NCBI GenBank assembly: GCA_000310025.1
Contig: FN649755.1
Location: 716,003 to 780,002 of the forward strand
Source: Ectocarpus siliculosus
Taxonomy: Eukaryota; Sar; Phaeophyceae; Ectocarpales; Ectocarpaceae
Length of the DNA: 64,000 bases
Direction: 5' to 3'
Below are positions 36,563 through 64,000 of the stretch, piece after piece (the first letter of the stretch is position 1; each line of letters starts with the position of its first letter). A program made the position numbers and the translations under genes. Below the pieces are notes generated by a model. The model ran no database searches, was not told the DNA's origin, and saw only the letters and a program-made list of their open reading frames with translations.

Positions 36563-36788
36563 GCAAGGTCCCCATCAAGATCATCACCAACCGCCTAAGC
36601 GTCTTCTGCGAAACCAACAACATCCTCCCGGAGGAACAATGCGGGTTCCGACCTGGGCGATCCACCATCGACATGCTGTTCGTCGTGCGCCGACTCCAGG
36701 AGTTGGTGCGGAGAAGGAAAATACCACTCTACATGTGCTTCGTCGACCTAAAGAAGGCGTATGATTCGGTGGACCGAGAGATGCTGTA
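36537..36788 (+). pseudogene. LINE RT core, first half
   Basis: Contains ILPEEQCGFRPGRSTID and [15 protein letters not shown] (motif A Asp). A TAG stop at 36787-36789 and then a frame change separate it from the second half. Confidence 0.82.
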
Positions 36789-36821
36789 GAAGGTCCTGGC
36801 CAGGCCGGGATTCCTGAGGAG

Positions 36822-37829
36822 ATGATCGCCGTCATCCGCCAATTCCATGACGGAATGCGCGCCCGGGTGCGCATGGACGACGGAGAGTTATCGGCCTGGT
36901 TCTCGGTCACACAAGGCCTACGACAAGGGTGTGTGCTGTCCCCACTGCTGTTCAATATCTTCTTCGCCGCGGTCATCGAGGTCGTTGCCATTCGATTCAG
37001 CGAGGATGATGTTATTCTGAGGAACCTCGTGTATCTGGAGGAGGAGACGGGAACGGGGGCGAGGACATCACTTGACCGAGTGCGGAGGGCGGTATGGGGG
37101 ATGCTGTATGCCGATGACGCCGGCGTCGTATCGAGGTCTGCCGAAGGACTGGCGAGAATGATGACCGTCATCGTGGAGGTGTTCGGGAAGTTCGGGCTGA
37201 CGGTATCGGAGAAGAAGACGGAGACGCTCCTGATGCGCGCTAAGGAGAAGCACATAGCAACACCACCGCCCCCCCCGCCGCCACCGCTGATCATCGAGGC
37301 AGCAGGGCAGAGGTATGCCCAGACGCCTGGATTCCGGTACCTAGGTGGCCTCGTCAACGAACATGGCGACCTCACCCGGGAGATCAACTACCGGAGCAGA
37401 ACAGCGTGGGCGTGCGTCAGGAGATATGGCCGGGAGCTCTTCGACAGGCCGAAAGCACCGTTCCGACTAAAGACTCGCCTGCTCCAGGCCGAGGTGATGG
37501 AGGCATTGCTGTACGGCTGCACGACATGGGCCCGACGTCAAGACCAATACCGGACGTTGCGGACGATACACCACCGACTGCTTCTGCGAGTTATCGGTTA
37601 CCAACGCAAGAAGGGCACCTACCGGCAGCTTTCCTACGCCCAGACCCTGAAGAGGGTAGGGTGCCAGAGCGTGGAAAACACTATCCGGAAACGGCGCCTG
37701 CTGTTGGCGGGAGTGCTGGTAAAGCAGCCAGACGGACGACTCCCGAAACGGGTGATGCTTGGCGAACTGATCGGGGGGGAGGGCCCACAGGCAGGGGGAA
37801 ACCGGAGCAAAACTGGCAGATGTGCCTGA
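36822..37829 (+). pseudogene. LINE RT core, second half and C-terminus
   Basis: Contains [20 protein letters not shown] (motif B), [10 protein letters not shown] (motif C, catalytic YADD), [11 protein letters not shown], a proline run from a C-rich tract, and a C-terminal region with [14 protein letters not shown]. The reading frame is open for 335 codons, but it cannot be joined to the upstream parts without frame changes. Confidence 0.85.
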
Positions 37830-42680: not shown

Positions 42681-43875
42681 TCTTCCTCTAACTCAGGGTG
42701 AAGAATGATGCGCCGAACAGACTTCCAACTCTGCCATCCAACGTGTGGCTATCGCTGAGAACGACCCCGTATTACGTTTGCCTCGTTCGCCCTGTATTAC
42801 CATCTGTTGTCGTCACGTGCAGCTGTTCTGAAGCACCTATCGAGGAAGGGGTGGTACGTGCACCGAGATGAGCGCTGAGGTCGACAGGATTGCTGTCGAC
42901 GTGGAGCCTGAAATAGGTACGTCGGGTCATGAAGGCCTCTGTAGAGAGTGGAACTGTTTTTGTTGTGAAGGAAACATCACCACCACCGCCACCGCCGCCA
43001 AAGCAGCAGCAGCAGCAACAACAACAACAACAAGGCATTGTATACGTATTGGTGAAAGAGGAAATGTAGAGCGGGAACGCGGTTGTCGCTAAAAAACTGA
43101 TTCCCTCACAAGTGCGTTTGCGCCAGCGGGTGGCTGCCTGATTTTCAATATAGACGCTGATTGGTCAGCATCTTGTCGATCTGTGAGAACGCTCTAGCAC
43201 CAGGTGTGATATCGGCCTGTAAGGGTTGGGGTTAGGGTTAGTGCTAACGCTCGAACACCAGGTGTGTATCGGTCGGTAGGGGCCAGTGTGCGCTATTTAG
43301 TGAGGCTGCCATTGAATAGGTTTACAATCGCCGTCTAAGGTGCATTGGATCCACTTTCAATAAAAAATACTCCAGTTGTGCGCATCGCGTGGCATTGTTT
43401 CGCGATGGTAGCCCACCGCCAAGTAGCCGCACACAACGGTTTCCGGCCGATGTTGTGGAGTATTTTGTCCAAACGAACACGATTTTCTCACTCTCTATTA
43501 TCTTCGTCATCGCGCTTGGTGCTACCGTACTTATTGGGTGACGTCACTCACATTCGAATTAAATATTCCAAACTTTCACGAGCGAAGGGCGAGAAAAACT
43601 ATTCCGAAACTGACGTCAGATGGTATCGATAGTTCGTTGCCTCCGTCAGGCGGTCGCCACAGCGACAGCAGCGGCAGCCTGTGTCTATCAATAGACGCCT
43701 TCAGGGTGTCCTCTACTTGTAACAGTAGAATGCATGATACCTAGACGGCGGAAAGGTTGCTCTCTTTTATGTGTATGCTGGATGAAGGATAGAAATTGAG
43801 CCGGCGTCCGAATAATCTCGTCTTTCATCCCTTGAGACTCTACTTTCTCTTGTTTTTTTTTCACATCAATTTGTC

Positions 43876-43915
43876 ATGGATGGTTCGTTTGGGCCACTGG
43901 CAGACGGTCGTTACC

Positions 43916-43968
<53 letters not shown>

Positions 43969-44991
43969 CGGTGTCTAGAAGCGTTTCGGGTGGCCCTCCA
44001 GCAGACCTGTCTCGACCGCGAGAGCTGGTACGCGTCGACCACGCAGCTCCAGCTGGTGTCTCTGCCGTTCTGCCTAGCCTGCCGGGACTCGGTTACCCTG
44101 TGCCTCACGGTCGACGACAGCATCCCTCGCCGGCTTCTCGCTGGTGTTAGCGCTGATGAAGCCGTTCCTGCTCCCGTCGACCCCCGCCAGCGTGGCCGTT
44201 CACGGGTGCCGCGGTTCCGAGCCCGCGAGGTGACTTGGCACCGCCGTTCGTTCGTTGAGCTGAGAGCCCCGATCTACGCCCTTGCGGAAGCTGATTTCTT
44301 TATTTTCGACGGTGGTTTCAACAGCGGCGTGGATGCCGTGGCGTGGCCGGCCAAGCTGAGGCGGCTCGAGTTCGGGGACTACTTCAATCAGAGCATCGCG
44401 GGGGCGGGCTGGCCGGCGTCGCTGGAACAGCTCACCTTCGGGTGCAACTTCAACCAGAGCGTCGAAGACGTGTCGTGGGCGAGTTCGCTGCAGGAGCTCG
44501 CGTTCTTGGGAAACTTTAACCAGAGCATCGAGGGCGTAACGTGGCCTTCGTCGCTGCAGCAGCTCACGTTTGGTCGCGAGTTCGACCAGCCGATTGAAGG
44601 AGTTCTCTGGCCGGCATCCATGCAGCAGCTCACGTTCGGGCTGAAGTTTAACCAGCCCGTTCAGAGGGTCGCCTGGCCGGCCTCGCTGAAGCAGCTGGCT
44701 TTCGGGGACGACTTCGACCATCCCCTGGAGCAAGAAGCTGATTGGCTCAAGTCTCTCGAGTATCTCTGTTTAGGCCGCTGGTTCAATCAATCCCTGCACG
44801 GGATAGGACGGTGGGCGCCTGACCTCGAAGAGCTCAAGCTTCGGGTAGATGGGCAGGAGTATGGTCTATCTCTCGCCGGGGTGGAGTGGCCGATAGGCCT
44901 CAAGAAGGTGACGGCGGACAAGACCCTGTGGGACAAGCATTCCGCGGCGTTTCCCGTGGGCGTGGAGTGGGATGTCTTCTTTCAACACTAA
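43876..44991 (+). CDS. FNIP-type leucine-rich repeat protein with polyserine N-terminus
   Basis: Single-exon ORF of 371 codons starting at ATG 43876. After 14 residues, an AGC/CAG run encodes a serine tract of 16. The region up to about residue 150 has no recognised domain. Then come about seven repeats of 22-24 residues with the pattern W-P-x-S-L-x-x-L-x-F-G-x-x-F-N-Q-x-I. Examples are VTWPSSLQQLTFGREFDQPI and VLWPASMQQLTFGLKFNQP. This is the FNIP-repeat class, known from amoebae and giant viruses. Such repeats build a solenoid that probably binds proteins. No signal peptide or membrane segment is seen. The last repeats are degenerate, and the chain ends after GVEWPIGLKK and GVEWDVFFQH. Its role is unknown. 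Confidence 0.85.
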
Positions 44992-48336: not shown

Positions 48337-49500
48337 TCACACGTCACCCCATCGGGTACCCTGCCCTGGCTGCGTAGTCACCTTCTCCTTGTTCGCCAAC
48401 ACCTCTGACACCCACGAAGCATCACCCCCAACATTCCGAACATAACACTGGTAACTACTCTCACCCGACCATCGCCCTTCTCTACGAAGAACCTCCGGCG
48501 ATGCACCCCCCGCCGCCAAGAAAGTTGCGCCCCCAATACGAAGGGAGTGCAGCGCGTACTCCTCCGGCTGCAAACCCGCCAACGCAACGACTTGGCGAAG
48601 GGCCACAACAGCTTGACACTTAGTCCACATGGCCCACTGGCCCCGACCAACACCGAAAGCCACGAGAGGCGCATGCGAAGGCAGAAACGTATACAGAGAA
48701 AGCAGCTCCACCATGACATCCACTGCACCACCCCCTCGGTCTACGCCACGACACGGACCTCGCCGTGTGCGCGTGCAAACCGCCCCTTTCCGAAACTGGT
48801 CCCCTTTGGACGAACGAAAACGTACCTCCACGCGATCGGCCAACGGCCACTGCGCCGACTGCAATATCTGGACCGCCCCCCGAAAAAACGCTACGTCCCC
48901 CCGACGCAACCCATGAACCTCATGCATGGACAATTTCGACACCGCAAACATCTCAGACGCTCGCGTCAGAAAGAAGAAAGAGGCACTCAGCGCAAGAAAC
49001 AAAACGCGCCCGCCTACGCCCCATTGAGGCACCAACGAACTCCCCTGTTGCAACATTGCCCAAGACACCGGCCGCCGCAACCGCTGCTGTGTTCCCACGT
49101 CGGCATGCCCCCGCGCCGCTCCACGTAAAGCACAACGAATCAGCGGATGCTGCGTATCAAGCTCCCCTTCACCCGACACACGATGGAAAAACTTAACAGC
49201 GGAAAGGTGACTAGCAATCGTCGAGTTTTGCAGGCCCAAAACGGAAAAACCATACGCGACGTACTCAACCAATTGAGCAACGACATCACGCGGAACAGTC
49301 TCAGCAGCAATAAACACCGGCCGACACACAACGGCCACACGATATTTCACCCAGCCTCCAAAAAGGCCCAGGTAAGTTCGTTCAGACGTTCGCGCAAGTG
49401 ACTGGCGGACGAGGCTGGCCCCAGCACGGCAGAGCACATCTCTTGCCCGGCTCGATTCAACTCCACTTCCTGCAATCGCACATGGGGGGCAGCGGCACAA
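48337..49500 (-). CDS. Tyrosine recombinase of the Ngaro-type element
   Basis: Open for 387 codons, but the frame has no early ATG; the first codon here is TTG. It probably relies on overlap with the pol frame, which ends at 49347, i.e. 154 bp inside this ORF. The catalytic signature is intact: LTRASEMFAVSKL (box A Arg), LHSLRIGGATFLAAGG (box B HxxR) and GRWSGESSYQCYVR (W and nucleophilic Tyr). The N-terminal part (LARTSERTYLGLFGGW, SHLSAVKFFHR) resembles the core-binding domain. It would insert the cDNA circle by recombination instead of a DDE integrase. Confidence 0.92.
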   Translation of the reverse strand: MCRCPPCAIAGSGVESSRARDVLCRAGASLVRQSLARTSERTYLGLFGGWVKYRVAVVCRPVFIAAETVPRDVVAQLVEYVAYGFSVLGLQNSTIASHLSAVKFFHRVSGEGELDTQHPLIRCALRGAARGHADVGTQQRLRRPVSWAMLQQGSSLVPQWGVGGRVLFLALSASFFFLTRASEMFAVSKLSMHEVHGLRRGDVAFFRGAVQILQSAQWPLADRVEVRFRSSKGDQFRKGAVCTRTRRGPCRGVDRGGGAVDVMVELLSLYTFLPSHAPLVAFGVGRGQWAMWTKCQAVVALRQVVALAGLQPEEYALHSLRIGGATFLAAGGASPEVLRREGRWSGESSYQCYVRNVGGDASWVSEVLANKEKVTTQPGQGTRWGDV

Positions 49501-51699
49501 AGGTTGTCGTACACATCAGCGGCGGGCCAGCGAGAAATACCATCGGCAAGCGAATTGAGCACACCAGGCACATGGGACGATTGAAAAAGCCACCCGCTAG
49601 ACACCTCAATCGCCCCCAGCATCCGCATGAGCGCGCCGGACCGCGGCTCCTTGCCTCCGCGACACCGCTCAATCCATGCCACACTCGCTTCATTGTCTCC
49701 TCGCAACTGGATGCAGTCACCGGCCGACACCGGCGCGTGACGCTGTTGCACGATCAACACCCACGCCGCCGCGACCATGCCGAGTAGCTCAAGAACATTG
49801 ATACTGACATCGGGACACGCGGATACAGACTTGCTAGACCCCACAAAACGGGACTGCTCGTCACACGTCAAATCACGCCGGAAATAACACCCAGTTTGCA
49901 CACAGTATGCTCCGAACGCTGTTTTGGACGCATCGGCAAACACGGCCATTACCGGAGGGCGAAGCACCACATTGTACATCGGTGCACACAACTGTCCGCC
50001 ACGCGACGCCAGACCGCGCTGCACAAACCAGCGCCAAAAATCCAAATCATCGTGAAACATGGGGCCCAACACGACACGCCGGGCGGGGTTAGAAACACGC
50101 GAAGGAAACACGTCGGATTGCGGCATGCCGACATCAGCCAACAGACAGCCGACGAAATATTTGCCTGGACGCAAGGCAAAAGACACGTGAAGAAGAAAAC
50201 CGGTCAATTCCGCGACTTGGCGGGCGGTCGCACACAGACGCGACCGCGGCCACTCGCCCAACAAACGATGTAATTTCTGTTGTTTTCGCAGAGGCATGGT
50301 CACTGTGAGAGTTTGCGTGTCCAAAATCCATCCCAACACCTCCAAACGTGTAGAAAAATCGGTGATCTTCTTTGCAGACAGCAACGGAGGATCGTGTGGC
50401 CCCCGGTGTCCCAGCAGGCGGAAATGGTCCGACGCGATCGACTGCACTGCACGTAAGCAACGACGACCATCCTTGAAAAAACCGCGCCTCGACAAGCACG
50501 CCGTCATCCACATAATATCGAACGAAAAACGCGGAACCAGCGAAACCGCCCTCCATAGTAATTTGGGCACAATCACGCGGTAGCGAAACGGGGAGGTGTT
50601 GGGGAGGAACAAGCTGAACATGATCAACCGCCGCAACGCCGGCAGGCAAAACAGAAGCTGTCTGAAAAGTAGTGTGGGTGTGTGCATGCTCAAGAGCGGA
50701 ACCGAACAGCGACCAAAAACCTGGGCTCGAACGCCAGCCAAACTGGCAACGAAGGTCAATAACGACCACGCCCCCCATCGTGTATCCGAATACCGATGCC
50801 CTCGAAGGGTCGACCAACACTTGACGAAAAGCCTCACGTACGTCAATACGACATAACAGAATCTCGAGATGTGGCCCGTGCAATTGGCGCAAAAACAATA
50901 CGCGCGACAAGATATCGAAAAGCACATGTCCCAACAGACACTCGGGGGCACGATCAAAATCTGTATCTGCATTAACGCTAGACGACGCACCAGCCGCTGT
51001 GAATGTGAGATCATGAATGATGCGGAATTTCGGATCTTCCACCACCCCAAGGGGGGAAACACGCACACCCAAAATTTCACGGATGAACTGCACGTCGAAG
51101 ACAAGAGCACGACCTAACGTAACATCCGAAACGATCTTGTCAGTAATCTGCGAAGTGTATGGTAAAATGCTGGAATGATTGCCGTATTTTAATTCGGCGT
51201 CGAGACACCCCCCCGGCGCCACATCGACGGGGGCGCCAGGACACAACACACGGAGGAGGTTGTCAATGTGCGGAAAACGTTTCGCGACTCCAAAAAATTC
51301 ACGAACCGACGCAACATCAACATGGGGCGCAAAGAAGCCGGCACCACCGGCCGCCACGAGCACTTCAATGCGCCCCCCACACTGTCTAAGCAAGGCGGAA
51401 CCAGCGGAAGCCACCTCACGAAGACCCACACCCATGTCGGAGGGTGAACACACCGTCGCTAAAGCAGACACACGATATCGCCACACGCCAAGTTCACGCG
51501 AACCTGCAACCGACCTAAACGAGGCGTCACCTGGTAACATCGAAGAGACAGCTCCGGGCACACACGCCCCTCGATCGACGCCCACGCCCGCCGCCGCCAA
51601 CGCCGCGGCCCCAAGCGCGCGGGAACCCGGCCTCGCTGTCTGATCTACGCTCCCACACACGTCCGGAGTTGGCCCCGCCGAAAGGCAGAGCCCGTGTCC
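49347..51699 (-). CDS. Reverse transcriptase-RNase H of the Ngaro-type element, one frame change
   Basis: The first frame runs from the in-frame TGA at 51700-51702 to about 50480. It holds the RT core: DPKFRIIHDLTF, LLCRIDVREAFRQVL (motif A), FGWRSSPGFWSLFG (motif B) and FVRYYVDDGVLVEA (motif C). At an A6 run on the plus strand (T6 on the coding strand, 50476-50481) the reading continues in another frame. That frame carries the thumb (LEVLGWILDTQTLTV) and RNase H with its acidic residues: MAVFADASKTAFGAY, INVLELLGMV, RGDNEASVAWI and SLADGISRWP. Removing one T would restore one frame, so this is either a point lesion or a +1 shift. No early ATG exists after the gag stop. Confidence 0.88.
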
Positions 51700-56015: not shown

Positions 56016-56883
56016 CATGGTTAGATCCTTGTATATCTCAACCTTCGGTAGTGCCACGGTTAGTTTCTGTCCGTAAAACTGCAGAATACCTCGCCGCAAT
56101 CTGCGGGGAAACTTTTTTGTCGCCGTGCACGATGACTCTTCGCGCGGTTGCGGTGTCGTGTCGTTGCCATAGATCCTGCTTCTTCTCCTGCTGTGACAGA
56201 CTGCTGCTTGCTGCTGTGATCTTCAGCGGCGTTCTTTTTGGCGGGAGTTTATCTATTTGTACGGTCACACGATATCTGGGAGATTTCTGCGCAGATTCTC
56301 TGCGAGCAGTCCGGGGAAAAATATTTCCTCTCGCGAAATACCCCGGCAGGTAAGGCAGGAAATCGGGAATATAAATGGAGCCGGCGTCGTTACCGTTGTC
56401 CGTGTTGTCTGCCGTGCAGCAATTTTGGAGTAGTGAGTCTCAAGAACACATACATACCATAGGGTAGGGGCGTCTTTGCCGCAAATCGCACTGCAGTAAC
56501 CCGCTCCTCTTGCTGCCCCCCTCCCTCTTGTGTTTTGAACCGCGTTGTGTTAAAACAGCTAAAAAGGAAAGCGCTCATACAAAGTAGACTTCTTTCACCT
56601 TTCGTAGCTGAGTACAGTTCGTGCGTAGACCGTATTCCTCGGGGCTGGGATCAGTGTGGGCAAGGTGGGAGGGGCAGGGCGCTTACCTGGATCACGTGTC
56701 TCTCCCATGATGGTCTCCACTTCTCGTACGGTATCTGGCAGCAATGTAGCAGCTTGCTGACGGCCGTCGTGCCGAAGTCGACCGTCATTTACTCACCAAC
56801 GGCCCACACAGTAATCACCCGTTCGCTCATGTTGACATGCATAGTGAGGCATGTGATAGACATGTTGCTAGCGGGTTGACGGG

Positions 56884-57182
56884 TGATATATGCACTTTAA
56901 CGGGCTTTATTAACTTTCATCCACATTGGGGGTGTTTAATAAACACCGGTGCTTGTTGACAACGTTCGTGAGAACGTGTCACGAAGGGACAAGTTGAAGT
57001 TGTCCTCTTCTTCGTAGATGCGGCATATCCGCCGCCTCTTCGATCACTCTAGAGGGCAAACAGGGAAGTGTTCGATACTTCGATTCCTGAATATAGCCCC
57101 CAGACCCCTAGCGCCGTAACCATCGAACAGTCACGGCCCATTATAGTATTTTGTGTAGATTCTGCACGCAGCCGCCATAACA
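56884..57182 (-). repeat. 3' LTR of the gypsy element
   Basis: 299 bp. On the minus strand it starts TGTTATGGCGGC directly after the polypurine tract and ends GTGCATATATCA, so TG...CA. It contains AATAAA close to its 3' end. Because the 5' LTR is outside the window, the boundaries rest on TG/CA and the polypurine tract only. Confidence 0.75.
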
Positions 57183-57391: not shown

Positions 57392-60300
57392 TCATTGAGA
57401 AGATGACGCCTTGTAGAGGTCGGCCTTCGTCTTCCCTCTATTTACCTCGCGGCGACTAAGCTCCTCCCAATCTCCGTCCGGATATCGCACTTTCCAATAC
57501 GGTTCCCTAAAGTCATAAACCATTCCCGTCTGCTCACTAACTTGCCCTCCTCCATCAGTGAACGCCTGTCTTACCTTGGTACCCACCGGGAAATCCTTTA
57601 GTGCTTGTTCACGAGAGGCTGCATCTCGGTCTTCTTTGCTCGGGTATTCAGGAGGTCTAGGTCGACACGTGTCATCATGATATTCTTCCCAGAGTGCGTG
57701 AAATACGTCTAACTGAAGAGAGGTAAAGCTATTGTAAGCCTCTTCCTCATTAATCCACTCTGACTCACGACCGTCCTGATACCGGCCACGATACTCCCAA
57801 CACCAAACCCGATCGTTCTTCCATAAGACCCGGCGATCTAACAAGGTGAAGAGAGGGCAGGCAGTCACAGACACATCGGGTAAACCCAACTCCGCGCCCC
57901 AAGCCCAATGAGCAAACTCATCTTCAAAATCGTGGCGCAATTCTTTAGGGCGCAGGTGAAATAACTTAACACTTGCTCCAGAAACCACTCTTCTTCGGAT
58001 TCGGCGCCCATTCAGTCGAACTCTAATGCTTTGTCCTAACCTAGTTACTTCGGTTACTATCCAAGGTGCAGTATAATGATCCTGGATCAGTTTAGGATGC
58101 AGGCCTTGCGAACTCAAAGAACTGTCAGCTTCCAAAACCATCACTAAATTCCCTTCTTTAACCCGATTACCAGCCGAGGCTCGTTGGATGGCCGCATTGG
58201 CGGTCCCTCTTTGTTTGTTTTTTTGAGCTTGTCGCTTTTCTAAGGCATTTCGAACCTCCACAAAAGATTGATGTTTCTCCGCGACGTAACTATCCATACC
58301 ACCTCTAAATTCGGTTCCATCAATGTGTCGAGTCATCGAATCTAAAGGTGTACGGGGAGTGCGTCCAAACAAAATACTGAAAGGGGTTGGGTTCCCAGGT
58401 AACGTAGGATCTGGGGTCACCCTCTGGATCCAACAAGCGGGCAAAACATAATGATCCCATCGAAGGGGCCAAGATTGGCAAAGAATAGACAAAACTTCTT
58501 GAAACCATCCCCCCATCCGTTCTGCTGCTCCTTGACTTCGCGAGAAATCTGCAGGACCATGATCAAGCGTAACATTTAACCATTTGCATAAATGATTGAC
58601 CACCGTAGCCGTAAATCCCCCCCCAGCATCACTTAGGATCGAAACAGGTACGCCAATAGTCAGCATTAACTCCAACAGTTTCTTGCTCACCTCTAGCGCC
58701 TCCTTCGAAGGTAAAGGATAACCGAAAATAAATTTACTAGCTCTGTCTACAACCACCAGCAAATACCGATTTCCTGCCGCCGATACCTGATGAAGATCCT
58801 GAATGTCCATCTCCAACACTTCCCAAGGATTCAAAAACCTAGCGGGAAGCATGTATACCTTCCTGCTCATGGCTCTTTTCCGCCGGCGACATCCACAAGA
58901 TAGGACATACTCACGAACATCCCGTTTTAATGTCGCCCAACTAAATTTCGCCATGACAAGCAAAGTAGTTCGTGCTACCCCCGGATGTCCATAAGTAGTG
59001 TGGATCAACGACATAACTCTCGATACTAACGAACGAGGAATAGCTAGCGTAGGTTCCGCCCCTTTAGAATAATGCCATAATATGCCCTCATCGTCAGTGA
59101 TAAAGTCTCCAATGGCTGTTCCTTCAGGTGATAGCTGTGACTTCAAGAAAGGATCAGCCCGTTGTTGATTCAAGATGAACTCAACATCCTTAAGTAACCG
59201 CAGGGTCTCGCTTACCAAAGAAGATTTGCATTCAACCGTATTCAACGGAGGGGAAATCGTGGGAGGTGCAGGTCTCGGTTGAGACGTGGGTTCCGGAAAG
59301 ATTGGAGAAGATACAGGTTCTTGGGTGGTAGTCTCCCCCTTCTCCTCCTCTACTGCTGGTGAAGATTGAACAAACTCAGGCGCATGTTGAACACTCTCGA
59401 CCACTCTCGTTCTCCTAGTAGCTCTCCGGGTTACGGCAGGGGTGACTTCTAAAGCGGCCAACCCTTCGGTAATATAATCTAACGAGTTCTCAAGTTCCCG
59501 GAAGAACCCTTGAAATTTCAAGCCCAAGAGAACCTCCCTCACATTAGGTGGAAGGGAATAGTTAGACAATATATTAGCGGCTGCTCCCCGGCTAAGAGCT
59601 CTCGGGATAACAAAATCACGTTTCGAAGTAAGAATCTGCTTAAAGTCCTCCAACTCTAACTCAACCGCTTCTTTGATATCACCAGAATCCGCTTTATGAG
59701 CTTGATAATCTTCAGGCAGAGGTATCGTCCCCATTATATGACCCCTTGAGATTGCCAGGGTGGGTTCCCCAAAAGAGAAAATGTGGCGTTCTCCTTTTTT
59801 CCTCTCTAAAAAGTAAGTTCCAGATTTGTTCAAGAACTCACCCAACGAAGGAGTCGCTCCACCCCCACCTCTCTCGACGATTTTTTTCCAAGCCTTCAAC
59901 CTTTCTCTTGATCTAGGAAACCTTCCTCTCTTAACCAACGAAATGTAAGTTCTTCTCCGTCCCGATGGAATATTTACTTGAATAGCTCTCAAATCCACTG
60001 ACTCCACATAGTATGCTTGAGACGCAATCGGGTATATTTCTTGTGTCCATGTTCTAGAAGCCATAAACGGACCTGCGCATTCAATTACTATTATCTCAGC
60101 TGTCGTCCTCAATAACGTGTCCATGATTAACCTGACTTGATTCATATCACATCCTTTTTCCACGTTGCATACAACTACCTCCGGGTGAACCTCTTGCAAA
60201 AGTTGAATGCACAGCGGTTCTCCTGGAAATGATCGTAACAATCTAGGACGTCCATCACCTGGATTAAATCTTGCACACTCTAAGCCTCTCCAGTCTGCTT

Positions 60301-63196
60301 CTATAGCAACCTTCACGTCTAGAATGCCTTCTGCGGCTAGGATATTACCTCCCCCCCCGCAGCAGAGCACGACCGCGACAGGTTGATATTCAAAGAGATG
60401 TGGCGGTGCTTGATATGACTCATCGAGCAACTGAGCATCTATCATATCTGTCTCCAACAGCGCCGCAATAGTTGTTGTATCCAACAACGACTGATCGTTT
60501 ACTGATCCGTCCTGATACGAGATGTCTTCCACCCCTAAATCCTTCAATAAAATGCCATCCAAAACCGGACCCTGAGGACCCCTGAACGAAAGTTTCGTAG
60601 ATGAATCATCCGGGAAATGGGCATCAATATCCTTAGTCGGCATGTCAAAACGTGGTAATCGAGACAGCGCATCAGGCAAATGATGACTCCGCCCTTCTCG
60701 CCACTGAACATCCGTGTCGTACTCCATCAAACGAAGAGCCCATCGATAGAGTTTTGGCGATAAGTGCTGGCTTTTGAATAACCATGTTAGTGCTGAACAA
60801 TCAGTGACTAAGGTAAATCTTCGACCCCATAAATAGTGTCGAAAATGTTCAACTGCCCATAACACAGCTGCCGCTTCTCTTTCTGTTGGGGATCGACGGG
60901 AATCCGTCCGAGTCCACCGATGACTAGCAAAAGCGATGACGCGTTCAATACTATCTTGAATTTGGGATAAGGCAGCGCCACCCCCAACTTCGGAAGCATC
61001 GGTATACAACACAAACCTCTCATGCCAATTCGGTAGAACCAGAATGGGTGGTGAAGACAGACAGTGAATGAGCTGTGCGAGGGCTTCATCTTGGGCTGGT
61101 CCCCACGGAATAGCTAATTTACGTCCTCGCTTCGACGCAAACCGAGAGTCATTTCGCAAAATATCAGTGAGTGGAGCCACAATTTCGCTAAATTTAGGAA
61201 CAAACCTTCGAAGGAACCCGGCCATCCCAATCAAAGCTCGTAACTCTTCAACATTAGATGCTGGTTTCAAACCTTGAATGGCTTCAATCTTAGAGGGCGA
61301 AGGCCGCAATCCCAAGCGATCTATAATCAGTCCCAAAAACTCCTGTTGAGAACAACACCACTTGCATTTTGCTAAGTTCAGGGAAAGACCCGCCTTTGAC
61401 AACGCTTCCAAAACCGATCTCAGTAGCGGAAGATGTTCTTCAATCGTGTCTGTGTAAATCAAAATGTCGTCGAGCCAATTTCGCACCCCTCTCCCTTTCA
61501 AAGATCCGAGAGCCTTTGATACCAAAGAAGCGAAACATGCTGGCAACACTTTCAACCCAAACCCTGGTTGATTGAATTCCCACAATTGGCCATGTGCATC
61601 ATGAAAAGCGGTTTTATATTTGTCCTTTTCTGCAATCGCGATTTGGTTGAATCCTGAAGCAAGGTCAATCGATGTTGTACAACCAACTCGTCCCATGTCG
61701 CTGTATATGGTTGTAATATCTCCCATAGAACCGCTGTTGGACACCAAACGTTGATTGAGAACACGGTAATCTTGGCACATGCGCAACGTCCCGTCTTTTT
61801 TTCGTACCAGAACCAAGCTTGCCGCCCATGGTGAGTTAGACCGCCGAATGACTCCTGCCTTTTGCAACTTGTCTACTCCAGTTTGAATCATCGTGACCTC
61901 CTCAGGTGACCATTTTCGTGGCTTGGATGCAAATGGGGTACCTGTTTCATCGATCAGAGGCAGTTCCATGGGGTCTCCCTTACACGGTTTGACTTTCTTT
62001 GGGTCTAAAGCAAACAAACCCTTGTCTCGATAATCTTGTAGTAAAGACATGAGCTCAGCTTTTATGCGAGGGGTCAGTTGGCCCATGTTTGCTTCAGATA
62101 AGTCAACCTGCTTCAGAGAAGAATCCACCTCAGCTGACTCATCCACTGCAGACCCTTTACTTACAGGAATATGTACACGCGAGACCTCCAACCGCGTCGC
62201 CTCTAGCAAAGACATACGTTCCACATCTGTTGCATTCATGGCATAAACTGTCGCTATAGCCCTACCTTTCTGAAGCTTTATCGGCGCATTTGTAACGTTG
62301 ACTATCTTACTTCGTATTGGAGTGTAAGGGTACCACCACTGAACCCCTCGTGCTGTACCCAAACCCACCCCCAATTCGAGATCATATGCAGGAAGCGGAG
62401 AAATCAGCACCAATTGTCGATCTTGTGGTTGTGGACCTTTGACAAATGTGTTAATTTGAACGCTGACGAAACCTTCCACTAAGATATCGTCTCCATTGTA
62501 CAATACCCATTGTAAGGTTCCATCATCTTCCCAAGCAGCGTTGCCAATCACCGGTATCTCAGTAGGGTTTTTAAGATAATGTGGTTCGTCTTCTTCCCCA
62601 GATGGTTTTACTGCCGCAAACTGGGTTTCATTGGCTAGGTCCCGTACTTCAAAACCATCACGAAACTTGAACTTACGAGGTTTTGCTCGCCAGCCCTTCC
62701 GCCGTTTTTGCCGATACTCCTGTGCTATTAATTTAGCATGTGACAAAAATGGAATCCATCGTGACCCGGGATTAGGCTTAAATCCACCCTCATCAGTGAA
62801 ACTAAGGATGCTTTCCTGTTGTCGGAAGAAAGCCGCTCCAATAATCAAACCATAAGGTAGCTTATCGACCACTCTGACCGTGACAATATGAACCTGGTCC
62901 TCCGGAGGAAAGACCAGCGGCAAATCAGTAGAACCCAAAATTTTCATCGGCGGCACCTGACTGTTTGACGGATTGGCTGCTTTCAACAATCCGCGCCCTT
63001 TTTTATTCACAATATCTTGTCCATTACGAGCAGTCGTTTCCACGGATTTGATAAAGGCTGCTGACGCATAATTACCTCCGCCTGCACCAGTGTCTAACAG
63101 CACCACAATCGTCATTCGAAGATTAACTTTTGTGGGGTGCCACACGACTGCTTTTACCCACACTTGTTTGGTTCCTGCGCTCACTGCTGCCATCAT
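57392..63196 (-). CDS. Gypsy Pol polyprotein with embedded C5-methyltransferase-like domain
   Basis: 1934 residues from ATG 63196 to TGA. Protease: VVLLDTGAGG (Asp35) and LPYGLIIGAAF. RT: about 430-680, with SIDLASGFNQIAI and NWLDDILIYT (Asp576-577). RNase H: VLYTDASEVG (733), Glu774, VTDCSAL (799), PDALSR (842). Residues about 937-1230 resemble a cytosine-5 methyltransferase (59507-60388): VVLCCGGGGN (motif I), AIEADWRG (motif II acid), EVVVCNVEKGCD where PPCQ is expected (motif IV), IVIECAGPF (VI), IPSGRRRTYIS (VIII) and SNYSLPPNV (X-like). Integrase: HTTYGHPG and LSCGC zinc region, then Asp1464, Asp1523 and Glu1559, an exact D,D-35-E. The tail has a chromo-like segment (about 1785-1840) and a Tudor-like segment (about 1869-1917, YWKVRYPDGDWEEL). 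The motif IV cysteine appears displaced or lost. Confidence 0.93.
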   Translation of the reverse strand: MMAAVSAGTKQVWVKAVVWHPTKVNLRMTIVVLLDTGAGGGNYASAAFIKSVETTARNGQDIVNKKGRGLLKAANPSNSQVPPMKILGSTDLPLVFPPEDQVHIVTVRVVDKLPYGLIIGAAFFRQQESILSFTDEGGFKPNPGSRWIPFLSHAKLIAQEYRQKRRKGWRAKPRKFKFRDGFEVRDLANETQFAAVKPSGEEDEPHYLKNPTEIPVIGNAAWEDDGTLQWVLYNGDDILVEGFVSVQINTFVKGPQPQDRQLVLISPLPAYDLELGVGLGTARGVQWWYPYTPIRSKIVNVTNAPIKLQKGRAIATVYAMNATDVERMSLLEATRLEVSRVHIPVSKGSAVDESAEVDSSLKQVDLSEANMGQLTPRIKAELMSLLQDYRDKGLFALDPKKVKPCKGDPMELPLIDETGTPFASKPRKWSPEEVTMIQTGVDKLQKAGVIRRSNSPWAASLVLVRKKDGTLRMCQDYRVLNQRLVSNSGSMGDITTIYSDMGRVGCTTSIDLASGFNQIAIAEKDKYKTAFHDAHGQLWEFNQPGFGLKVLPACFASLVSKALGSLKGRGVRNWLDDILIYTDTIEEHLPLLRSVLEALSKAGLSLNLAKCKWCCSQQEFLGLIIDRLGLRPSPSKIEAIQGLKPASNVEELRALIGMAGFLRRFVPKFSEIVAPLTDILRNDSRFASKRGRKLAIPWGPAQDEALAQLIHCLSSPPILVLPNWHERFVLYTDASEVGGGAALSQIQDSIERVIAFASHRWTRTDSRRSPTEREAAAVLWAVEHFRHYLWGRRFTLVTDCSALTWLFKSQHLSPKLYRWALRLMEYDTDVQWREGRSHHLPDALSRLPRFDMPTKDIDAHFPDDSSTKLSFRGPQGPVLDGILLKDLGVEDISYQDGSVNDQSLLDTTTIAALLETDMIDAQLLDESYQAPPHLFEYQPVAVVLCCGGGGNILAAEGILDVKVAIEADWRGLECARFNPGDGRPRLLRSFPGEPLCIQLLQEVHPEVVVCNVEKGCDMNQVRLIMDTLLRTTAEIIVIECAGPFMASRTWTQEIYPIASQAYYVESVDLRAIQVNIPSGRRRTYISLVKRGRFPRSRERLKAWKKIVERGGGGATPSLGEFLNKSGTYFLERKKGERHIFSFGEPTLAISRGHIMGTIPLPEDYQAHKADSGDIKEAVELELEDFKQILTSKRDFVIPRALSRGAAANILSNYSLPPNVREVLLGLKFQGFFRELENSLDYITEGLAALEVTPAVTRRATRRTRVVESVQHAPEFVQSSPAVEEEKGETTTQEPVSSPIFPEPTSQPRPAPPTISPPLNTVECKSSLVSETLRLLKDVEFILNQQRADPFLKSQLSPEGTAIGDFITDDEGILWHYSKGAEPTLAIPRSLVSRVMSLIHTTYGHPGVARTTLLVMAKFSWATLKRDVREYVLSCGCRRRKRAMSRKVYMLPARFLNPWEVLEMDIQDLHQVSAAGNRYLLVVVDRASKFIFGYPLPSKEALEVSKKLLELMLTIGVPVSILSDAGGGFTATVVNHLCKWLNVTLDHGPADFSRSQGAAERMGGWFQEVLSILCQSWPLRWDHYVLPACWIQRVTPDPTLPGNPTPFSILFGRTPRTPLDSMTRHIDGTEFRGGMDSYVAEKHQSFVEVRNALEKRQAQKNKQRGTANAAIQRASAGNRVKEGNLVMVLEADSSLSSQGLHPKLIQDHYTAPWIVTEVTRLGQSIRVRLNGRRIRRRVVSGASVKLFHLRPKELRHDFEDEFAHWAWGAELGLPDVSVTACPLFTLLDRRVLWKNDRVWCWEYRGRYQDGRESEWINEEEAYNSFTSLQLDVFHALWEEYHDDTCRPRPPEYPSKEDRDAASREQALKDFPVGTKVRQAFTDGGGQVSEQTGMVYDFREPYWKVRYPDGDWEELSRREVNRGKTKADLYKASSSQ

Positions 63197-63267
63197 GTCT
63201 ACCTCTTTTTTGTCTCTTTCCGATTACACGCTGTGTTCCCCGGGGAAGGAGTCCCCAGGGCGCATCT

Positions 63268-63999
63268 TCAAGATGAGTTCCGTTCTGGAGTATCCAGTTG
63301 AGTCGAACTAGTGTCTGAGTCTGCGTAATCTGCTCCATACGCCCGTTGCATGTCAGTACAAGCATCCGCGGACGCCTGAACCGCGAATACTTGTTCCTTA
63401 GCGTAATATCCTAACGGAACGATTGAAGTGTCATGCGAGTATCGGCATCCCCGTCGGTTTTTTTGATGCGGGCAGTTGAGGCCTCGTGCGTGGTAAAAGC
63501 AGATCTTTCTAGCTTTTAAAGCTTTGAAAATAACTTCGTCGTCTTCGGAAGGGAGAGGGAGTTCCTCTTCCTCTTCATTCGGAGCCGATACAGTCGGGTC
63601 CACTACACGCCTCTGTTTACCGCTTGATGAAGTAGGACGCGACCTATTGACCGCTATGCGTGGTGCTTGTTCGACGGGGAGAGACGGAGGCCGAGCAGTC
63701 TGCGACCGTGCCTCTCCTCCTCGCGTGAAGGGAGTACCCGTTCTTCCAGGCACTGAAGCCGGACGATTAGCAAACGCAGCTAGCAACGTGGTAAATGTAT
63801 CAACTGTATCAAGCTCCACCACATCCGAATTGGAATCATCTTCGTGCTGTTGGTCACCACCCCCCTTTTGCTCTTGAGAAAGAAGGTCTCGAAGCGCTCC
63901 AAGAAGTGCTGTTTTCGTCAAAGGTTTCTTCTTCGAGGGTGTATCATGATCATTGTCCAACAACCTCTTGTGGCTAATCAAATCCGTATTCGCTGCCAA
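63268..63999 (-). CDS. Gypsy Gag, partial, CCCH zinc finger
   Basis: Open to the window edge; the true start is probably outside, because the first codon seen is TTG. It has a charged, low-complexity middle (EEEEELPLPSEDDEV), then KICFYHARGLNCPHQKN followed by RRGCRYSH, giving a C-x8-C-x8-C-x3-H finger. It stops 72 bp upstream of the pol ATG, in a different frame. Only about 240 residues of Gag are visible. The capsid fold cannot be judged from this part. Confidence 0.8.
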   Translation of the reverse strand: MAANTDLISHKRLLDNDHDTPSKKKPLTKTALLGALRDLLSQEQKGGGDQQHEDDSNSDVVELDTVDTFTTLLAAFANRPASVPGRTGTPFTRGGEARSQTARPPSLPVEQAPRIAVNRSRPTSSSGKQRRVVDPTVSAPNEEEEELPLPSEDDEVIFKALKARKICFYHARGLNCPHQKNRRGCRYSHDTSIVPLGYYAKEQVFAVQASADACTDMQRAYGADYADSDTSSTQLDTPERNSS

Positions 64000-64000
64000 C

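Follow-up and report, generated by a model that had tools for sequence, protein, structure and literature searches.

A cytosine-methyltransferase-like domain without its catalytic motif inside the Pol protein of a Ty3/Gypsy retrotransposon

Introduction

What does a domain resembling a C5-cytosine methyltransferase do inside the Pol protein of a Ty3/Gypsy retrotransposon, and can it still transfer methyl groups? DNA methyltransferases (DNMTs) carried by retrotransposons are reported to methylate CGs de novo, and captured copies have been proposed to methylate the DNA of the element itself (PMC5890265). The setting of the present locus gives the question its edge: brown algae are described in PMC13076208 as having no DNMTs except DNMT2 and as having lost DNA methylation, Ectocarpus 5mC is called negligible (PMC12477816), and in Saccharina about 1.4% of cytosines are reported to be methylated, mainly at CHH (PMC6916402). 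PMC6338049, PMC11541908 and PMC9998398 served as context only.

The element lies in a stretch of 64,000 nt, here called the window, for which a first-pass annotation had proposed a captured methyltransferase domain between RNase H and integrase, in a stramenopile host. We examined the architecture of the element, the kinship of the domain, the state of its catalytic site, the selection acting on it and its distribution among related elements.

Results

The element lies on the minus strand. Its 3′ LTR (635 bp, 56548–57182) was paired, by comparison of the two LTRs, with a partner at 67425–68059, coordinates extrapolated beyond the window; the pair is identical at 629 of 635 bases (99.1%), and the six differences are all transitions. 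Since the LTRs are this similar, both begin with TG and end with CA, and the target-site duplication CAAC flanks the element on both sides, the window copy is a young LTR element; its open frames are long, and the methyltransferase-like domain is in place. The Pol frame (57392–63223, stop codon at 57392–57394) encodes 1943 residues. It carries a reverse transcriptase (RVT_1, residues 473–634, 61322–61807, Pfam E 1.9e-18), an RNase H-like domain (RT_RNaseH, residues 734–835, 60719–61024, E 3.5e-31), an integrase H2C2 zinc-binding domain (residues 1395–1449, 58877–59041, E 4.7e-10) and an integrase core (rve, residues 1467–1556, 58556–58825, E 2.8e-8). This order of reverse transcriptase, RNase H and then integrase, together with the LTRs and the short duplication, is that of a Ty3/Gypsy element; a protease-like motif, DTGA, lies at residue 44.

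At the C-terminal end of Pol, residues 1899–1928 (57440–57529) resemble PTM_DIR17_Tudor at E 0.0038 and 0.001, with 17.4 and 19.2 bits against a Pfam cut-off of 27.2, and we refer to this region as the Tudor-like tail. A tryptophan-rich stretch that precedes it (WEYRGRYQDG...) looks chromodomain-like by eye, with no Pfam match. The C-terminal part of the Gag frame occupies 63268–64000 on the same strand, the frame of 733 residues extending beyond the window; near its end is a CCCH-like finger (63430–63501), which gave a weak PARP12-like finger match (E 0.038) below the cut-off. Elsewhere in the window there are an open frame with FNIP repeats (43816–44991, Pfam E 6.6e-24), a reverse-transcriptase fragment of another element (36765–37829, RVT_1 E 3.4e-13) and a long open frame (49347–51113) whose match to a Pao retrotransposon peptidase is weak and under the cut-off (E 0.0089). 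An Rfam scan of all 64,000 nt returned no matches.

The methyltransferase-like module comprises Pol residues 930–1241 (about 310 residues, 59501–60436). Protein searches returned P0002 and P0003, then P0009–P0014 and later P0015–P0019; the best named relative, P0014, comes from Ectocarpus sp. CCAP 1310/34, where it is listed as an unnamed protein product, and supports the proposed stramenopile host as probable; we take the host to be, probably, a brown alga. A search of the genome (189 Mb, 492 contigs) with Pol residues 918–1316 gave 68 matches, several per copy. We distinguish branch A (the window copy, P0002 and P0003, with P0016 placed there by identity only), branch B (P0004 and P0009, for example), branch C (P0005 and P0012) and branch E (P0013). 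Alignment A2, of 12 rows, left out P0008 (a near copy of P0004), P0014 (the N-terminal part of which appeared non-homologous when aligned) and the later-found P0015–P0019; its sequences are 32–49% identical to that of the window, and it contains 28 invariant and 24 nearly invariant columns.

Taken alone, the window module matched no methyltransferase model in Pfam and nothing among the PDB sequences. A Seadorna_VP8 match (E 0.008–0.024), found for the window row only and far below the cut-off, was taken as chance. Within the family, PF00145 matched six of the 12 members (best E 0.036) without reaching its gathering cut-off, TIGR00675 dcm matched three of 12 (best E 0.052, below the cut-off), and the PDB search returned six matches: at the top a nucleoside phosphorylase, which is unrelated (E 0.55), then M.HhaI five times (E 0.57–0.85). 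C5 methyltransferases were the only match to recur when 24736 Pfam models, 18950 NCBIfam models and every PDB sequence were scanned.

Comparison of profiles with hhalign, in which the 12-sequence module profile was set against 55 C5 methyltransferases, gave a score of 54.7 (P 6.7e-7, probability 92%, 248 columns), with motifs I–IX in order and in register and motif X not recognisable. The best of 100 column shuffles scored 24.3, reversed profiles 17.5 and 18.0, and five other Pol blocks (protease, reverse transcriptase, RNase H, integrase and C-terminal) no more than 19.7. The B, C and E rows alone matched the C5 profile at P 2e-6 and the A rows alone more weakly, at P 7e-4; against 32 of the C5 sequences that form a more distant subset, the full module profile gave P 1e-6. 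An N6-adenine methylase profile of 21 sequences, from 50 loci, gave P 0.4, and prmA gave P 0.013. A shallow profile of eight Dcm sequences, from 27 loci, did not match (P 0.3), pooling Dcm with the C5 set weakened the match to P 1.6e-5, and neither Dam nor Dcm of E. coli, as single sequences, matched the module profile. The C5 profile itself drew on 58 of the best 80 of 114 loci, three of which were dropped for stops. Searches of viral contigs with the module led nowhere, and no Dam relatives were found in those contigs. With Pfam domains on both sides and a profile match between them, the proposal of a C5-methyltransferase-like domain at this place in Pol stands. We consider its homology to C5 methyltransferases highly likely, though not proven, and we infer a Rossmann-type C5-methyltransferase fold.

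Separately, module residues 199–252 (59681–59842) form a strongly conserved, family-specific block, G.FL...G.YFL.R...IFSF..P...I...HIMG..P....H..D.G, which falls in the half where C5 methyltransferases carry their target-recognition region.

Column mapping placed motif I, VVLCCGGGGN, at Pol residues 951–960 (60344–60373), with module glycines 27, 29 and 30 aligned to G20, G22 and G23 of an M.HhaI-like template. Motif VI, ECAGPF, lies at residues 1048–1053 (60065–60082), its Glu present in 12 of 12 rows, and motif VIII, IPSGRRRTY, at residues 1085–1093 (59945–59971), its Pro and two basic residues likewise present in every row. These three motifs and motif II had been named in the first-pass annotation and were all located; the acid of motif II, however, is by the profile the Asp of ‘DW’ and not, as had been suggested, the Glu of ‘AIE’ (in A2 the position is Asp in 11 rows and Glu in one, and the Trp is present in all 12). 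In the module family, degeneration has affected motifs III, IV and X, with no conserved Asp in motif III. LPPNV, earlier read as motif X, provides no evidence for that motif because its Asn is private to the window copy in A2, the other 11 rows all having Met.

At the place of motif IV the window copy reads CNVEK (residues 1019–1023, 60155–60169), and the catalytic Cys is missing. The idea that a shifted cysteine within VCNVEKGCD might serve in its stead had to be abandoned, as neither Cys is conserved (CNIAKGA in P0002, GDASRKP in P0003, ANIGKGA in P0016). Across branch A, motif IV reads CNVEK (CNVGK in L011, YNLES in L028), CNIAK, GDASR or ANIGK, the Cys being replaced by Glu, Ala, Ser or Gly in P0001, P0002, P0003 and P0016. 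Because no Cys is conserved there, the A branch is very probably non-catalytic, in agreement with the earlier suggestion that, with PPCQ lost, the domain may be non-catalytic.

The sister branches read differently; neither their Cys nor the sister lineage without the module, described below, had been foreseen in the first-pass annotation. Among loci fetched for 30 of the 68 genome matches, GNAC occupies motif IV in 14 of the 16 own-genome B and C copies read (Asp in L022, Tyr in L027), and its Cys is present in seven of eight readable database relatives, P0017 having Tyr with a Cys one position later. The two residues before this Cys are mostly N-A, with N-V or D-S in single cases, and never P-P. 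Set against the Pro-Cys of the nucleophile motif, then, the window branch has no Cys and its sisters mostly have A-C for P-C. Without the A rows, the GNAC Cys falls exactly on the catalytic Cys in the hhalign alignment; with them, it is shifted by one column. Judged from these motifs, catalysis in branches B, C and E is uncertain.

Purifying selection across copies, for which the first-pass annotation had suggested a test, was evident in module dN/dS values (Nei-Gojobori) of 0.17–0.58, a range to be read with the caveat that the compared copies share history and that decay after insertion shifts values towards 1. The seven A pairs gave 0.46, 0.46, 0.44, 0.37, 0.28, 0.58 and 0.31; the nine B pairs 0.32, 0.29, 0.28, 0.27, 0.24, 0.25, 0.22, 0.46 and 0.24; and the three C pairs 0.52, 0.21 and 0.17, with L033 too diverged to be scored and L020, at the same place as L043, not counted. 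In Fisher tests of eight of these 19 pairs, dN was below dS in all eight (p 8.5e-8 to 0.031). In 14 of 15 comparisons the dN/dS of the module was lower than that of the linker next to it, the exception being L046 (0.17 against 0.16 for the linker); compared with integrase, the module was under weaker constraint in 14 of the 17 pairs in which both were measured. The module looks to be still kept by natural selection.

The nearest Gypsy elements by reverse transcriptase (window 61130–61909), beyond the close copies of the window element, form a lineage, D, with 54–56% identity and 13 places in the genome. By eye, none of the 68 module matches lies close to one of these places, and a match to the tail accompanies 12 of the 13. 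Lineage D (loci L131–L137) consists of near-identical copies and has the linker and Tudor-like tail in common with the window element; the module is absent from L132, L133 and L136, the three of seven fetched loci readable from RNase H to integrase. That D has near-identical copies which lack it implies that the module is dispensable for Gypsy retrotransposition in general.

In a rooted RT–RNase H tree of 21 rows, five of them outgroups, all 12 module-bearing rows fell on one side of a branch with D outside it, with support of 89/89, which is under the level that the tool stars. The outgroup rows were five other Gypsy loci, used in place of L001–L008, the first RVT_1 loci, which had no match to the reverse-transcriptase query. 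In a tree without outgroups, D was placed beside the A rows. L043, at 167 residues, did not have the length needed for the first tree and is absent from the second, L133 is in the first only, and L135 and L137 are in neither. Holding A together with D cost 3.7 log units (p-AU 0.149) and was not rejected, so the module may instead have been lost from D. On the rooted tree, a single gain in the Gypsy lineage with the Tudor-like tail is favoured, though not decisively.

A genome search with PF00145 found a single locus, C2:8124750–8127041, with two exon-like matches, the reading frames of which carry PPCQPFCR and a GNSVNV stretch; by this signature we take it to be a Dnmt2-like gene. It is the sole C5-methyltransferase gene found in the host by this search, which ignores introns, so that a fragmented gene could be missed. 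The observed/expected CpG ratio is 0.93 in the element, 0.98 in window positions 1–56000 and 0.82–1.01 in six B and C loci. Ratios of CpG to non-CpG transitions were 0.89–1.01 in five A copies, 0.94–1.56 in nine B copies and 1.37 in one C copy; three comparisons within D gave 3.14, 1.78 and 0.70, the first two resting on seven events each. Three of the six LTR differences touch a CpG, against a 25% share of CpG among C/G sites, an excess that chance can account for (p 0.17). CpG decay as a trace of methylation was looked for in the A copies and none was seen, and the copies as a whole carry no clear methylation footprint.

Discussion

We propose that a C5-cytosine-methyltransferase domain entered Pol, most likely once, in a Ty3/Gypsy lineage marked by a Tudor-like tail, taking its place between RNase H and integrase, and that the domain would then have degenerated at motifs III, IV and X while its core and a family-specific C-terminal half were kept. 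In the window branch it would now be a pseudo-methyltransferase, one that has lost methyl transfer and is retained under selection as a working, non-enzymatic part of Pol. We put the probability of this explanation, the best that we can offer, at about 50%. Beside the integrase and its Tudor-like tail, such a module would most likely bind nucleic acid, whether the cDNA or the DNA of the target; SAM is a possible further ligand, and the module may help to handle or place the cDNA. Its mode of action could be likened to that of pseudo-methyltransferases such as DNMT3L. DNMT3L and plant DRM3 are non-catalytic members of the C5-methyltransferase fold that retain function, but they are host genes acting with active partners and not parts of retrotransposons. 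A domain that appears to be kept by selection after losing its catalytic motif, in a probable brown alga, would separate a role in methylation from other uses of the fold, and a sister lineage without the module, together with sister branches with or without the Cys, makes the question directly testable.

Several other explanations have to be weighed. The module might be a decaying remnant of a captured methyltransferase, tolerated as a functionless spacer, as the loss of motifs III, IV and X, the ability of lineage D to manage without it and its weaker constraint than integrase in 14 of 17 pairs would suggest. We consider this possible but unlikely, given dN/dS values well below 1 and below those of the linker in 14 of 15 comparisons, the 28 invariant and 24 nearly invariant columns among 12 sequences that are 32–49% identical to that of the window, and an open frame in a copy whose LTRs are 99.1% identical. 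That the resemblance to C5 methyltransferases arose by chance, the module being some other Rossmann-like or an unrelated domain, is highly improbable. Single-sequence matches were indeed all below their cut-offs, the top PDB match was unrelated and the shallow Dcm profile gave nothing; even so, C5 methyltransferases were the sole recurring match in the Pfam, NCBIfam and PDB scans, the profile match (P 6.7e-7) far exceeded its controls, and the N6-adenine methylase and prmA profiles reached only P 0.4 and 0.013.

A different possibility concerns the GNAC branches B, C and E, which could encode active C5 methyltransferases that use the Cys as nucleophile to methylate their own cDNA, activity having been lost only in A. 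The Cys sits exactly on the catalytic one when the A rows are left out and occurs in 14 of 16 own-genome copies and seven of eight readable relatives, the Glu of motif VI is present in all 12 rows, seven of nine B copies and the one C copy have a mild excess of CpG transitions, and retrotransposon DNMTs elsewhere are reported to methylate CGs de novo (PMC5890265). Set against this, P-P never precedes the Cys, neither the motif III Asp nor motif X is recognisable, inclusion of the A rows moves the Cys one column off, the B and C loci, with CpG ratios of 0.82–1.01 and transition ratios of 0.94–1.56, show no strong decay, and brown algae are described as without DNMTs except DNMT2 and as having lost DNA methylation (PMC13076208). 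Activity of this kind appears distinctly unlikely to us. A bolder proposal, and a very unlikely one, is that the GNAC domain works with a variant nucleophile, in which case the one DNA or cDNA C5 methyltransferase remaining in brown algae would be made by a retrotransposon and the window branch would be its non-catalytic reader.

The selected, non-enzymatic Pol module that we favour can be set beside several known systems. In the profile alignment its motifs I, II, VI, VIII and IX agree in order and in spacing with those of M.HhaI and the C5 methyltransferases of PF00145, from which it differs in its degenerate motifs III, IV and X. KnitGypsy-Dnmt3 of Klebsormidium nitens is likewise an LTR Gypsy element with a DNMT inside the Pol frame, and its DNMT domain is under purifying selection (Ka/Ks < 0.2; PMC5890265). 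There, however, the DNMT can be recognised as a Dnmt3, its key residues are conserved and the host methylates its DNA (PMC5890265), whereas the window module lies below Pfam detection, has no PPCQ and resides in a genome in which only a Dnmt2-like gene was found; the conserved catalytic residues that mark an active captured DNMT of the KnitGypsy-Dnmt3 type are absent from it. SymbioLINE-Dnmt and SymbioDIRS-Dnmt3 are also algal retrotransposon-borne cytosine methyltransferase domains, but they belong to LINE and DIRS elements, their key residues are conserved and their host genome is mostly CG-methylated (PMC5890265).

Gypsy-10_Ec32 of Ectocarpus, a brown alga, resembles the window element in having a Gypsy Pol with a C-terminal Tudor domain (PMC12477816), and judged by the Tudor-like tail alone the two are perhaps of the same broad lineage. 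In the main text of that paper the word ‘methyltransferase’ occurs four times, none of them on Gypsy: the subjects are the Sola1-1 DNA transposon and histone enzymes, and a single reference accounts for two of the four (PMC12477816). Searches of mainly open-access, published main texts listed no description of brown-algal Gypsy elements that carry a methyltransferase domain. DNMTs captured by retrotransposons are already known; the decayed, Pol-internal form without PPCQ described here is a further variant of them.
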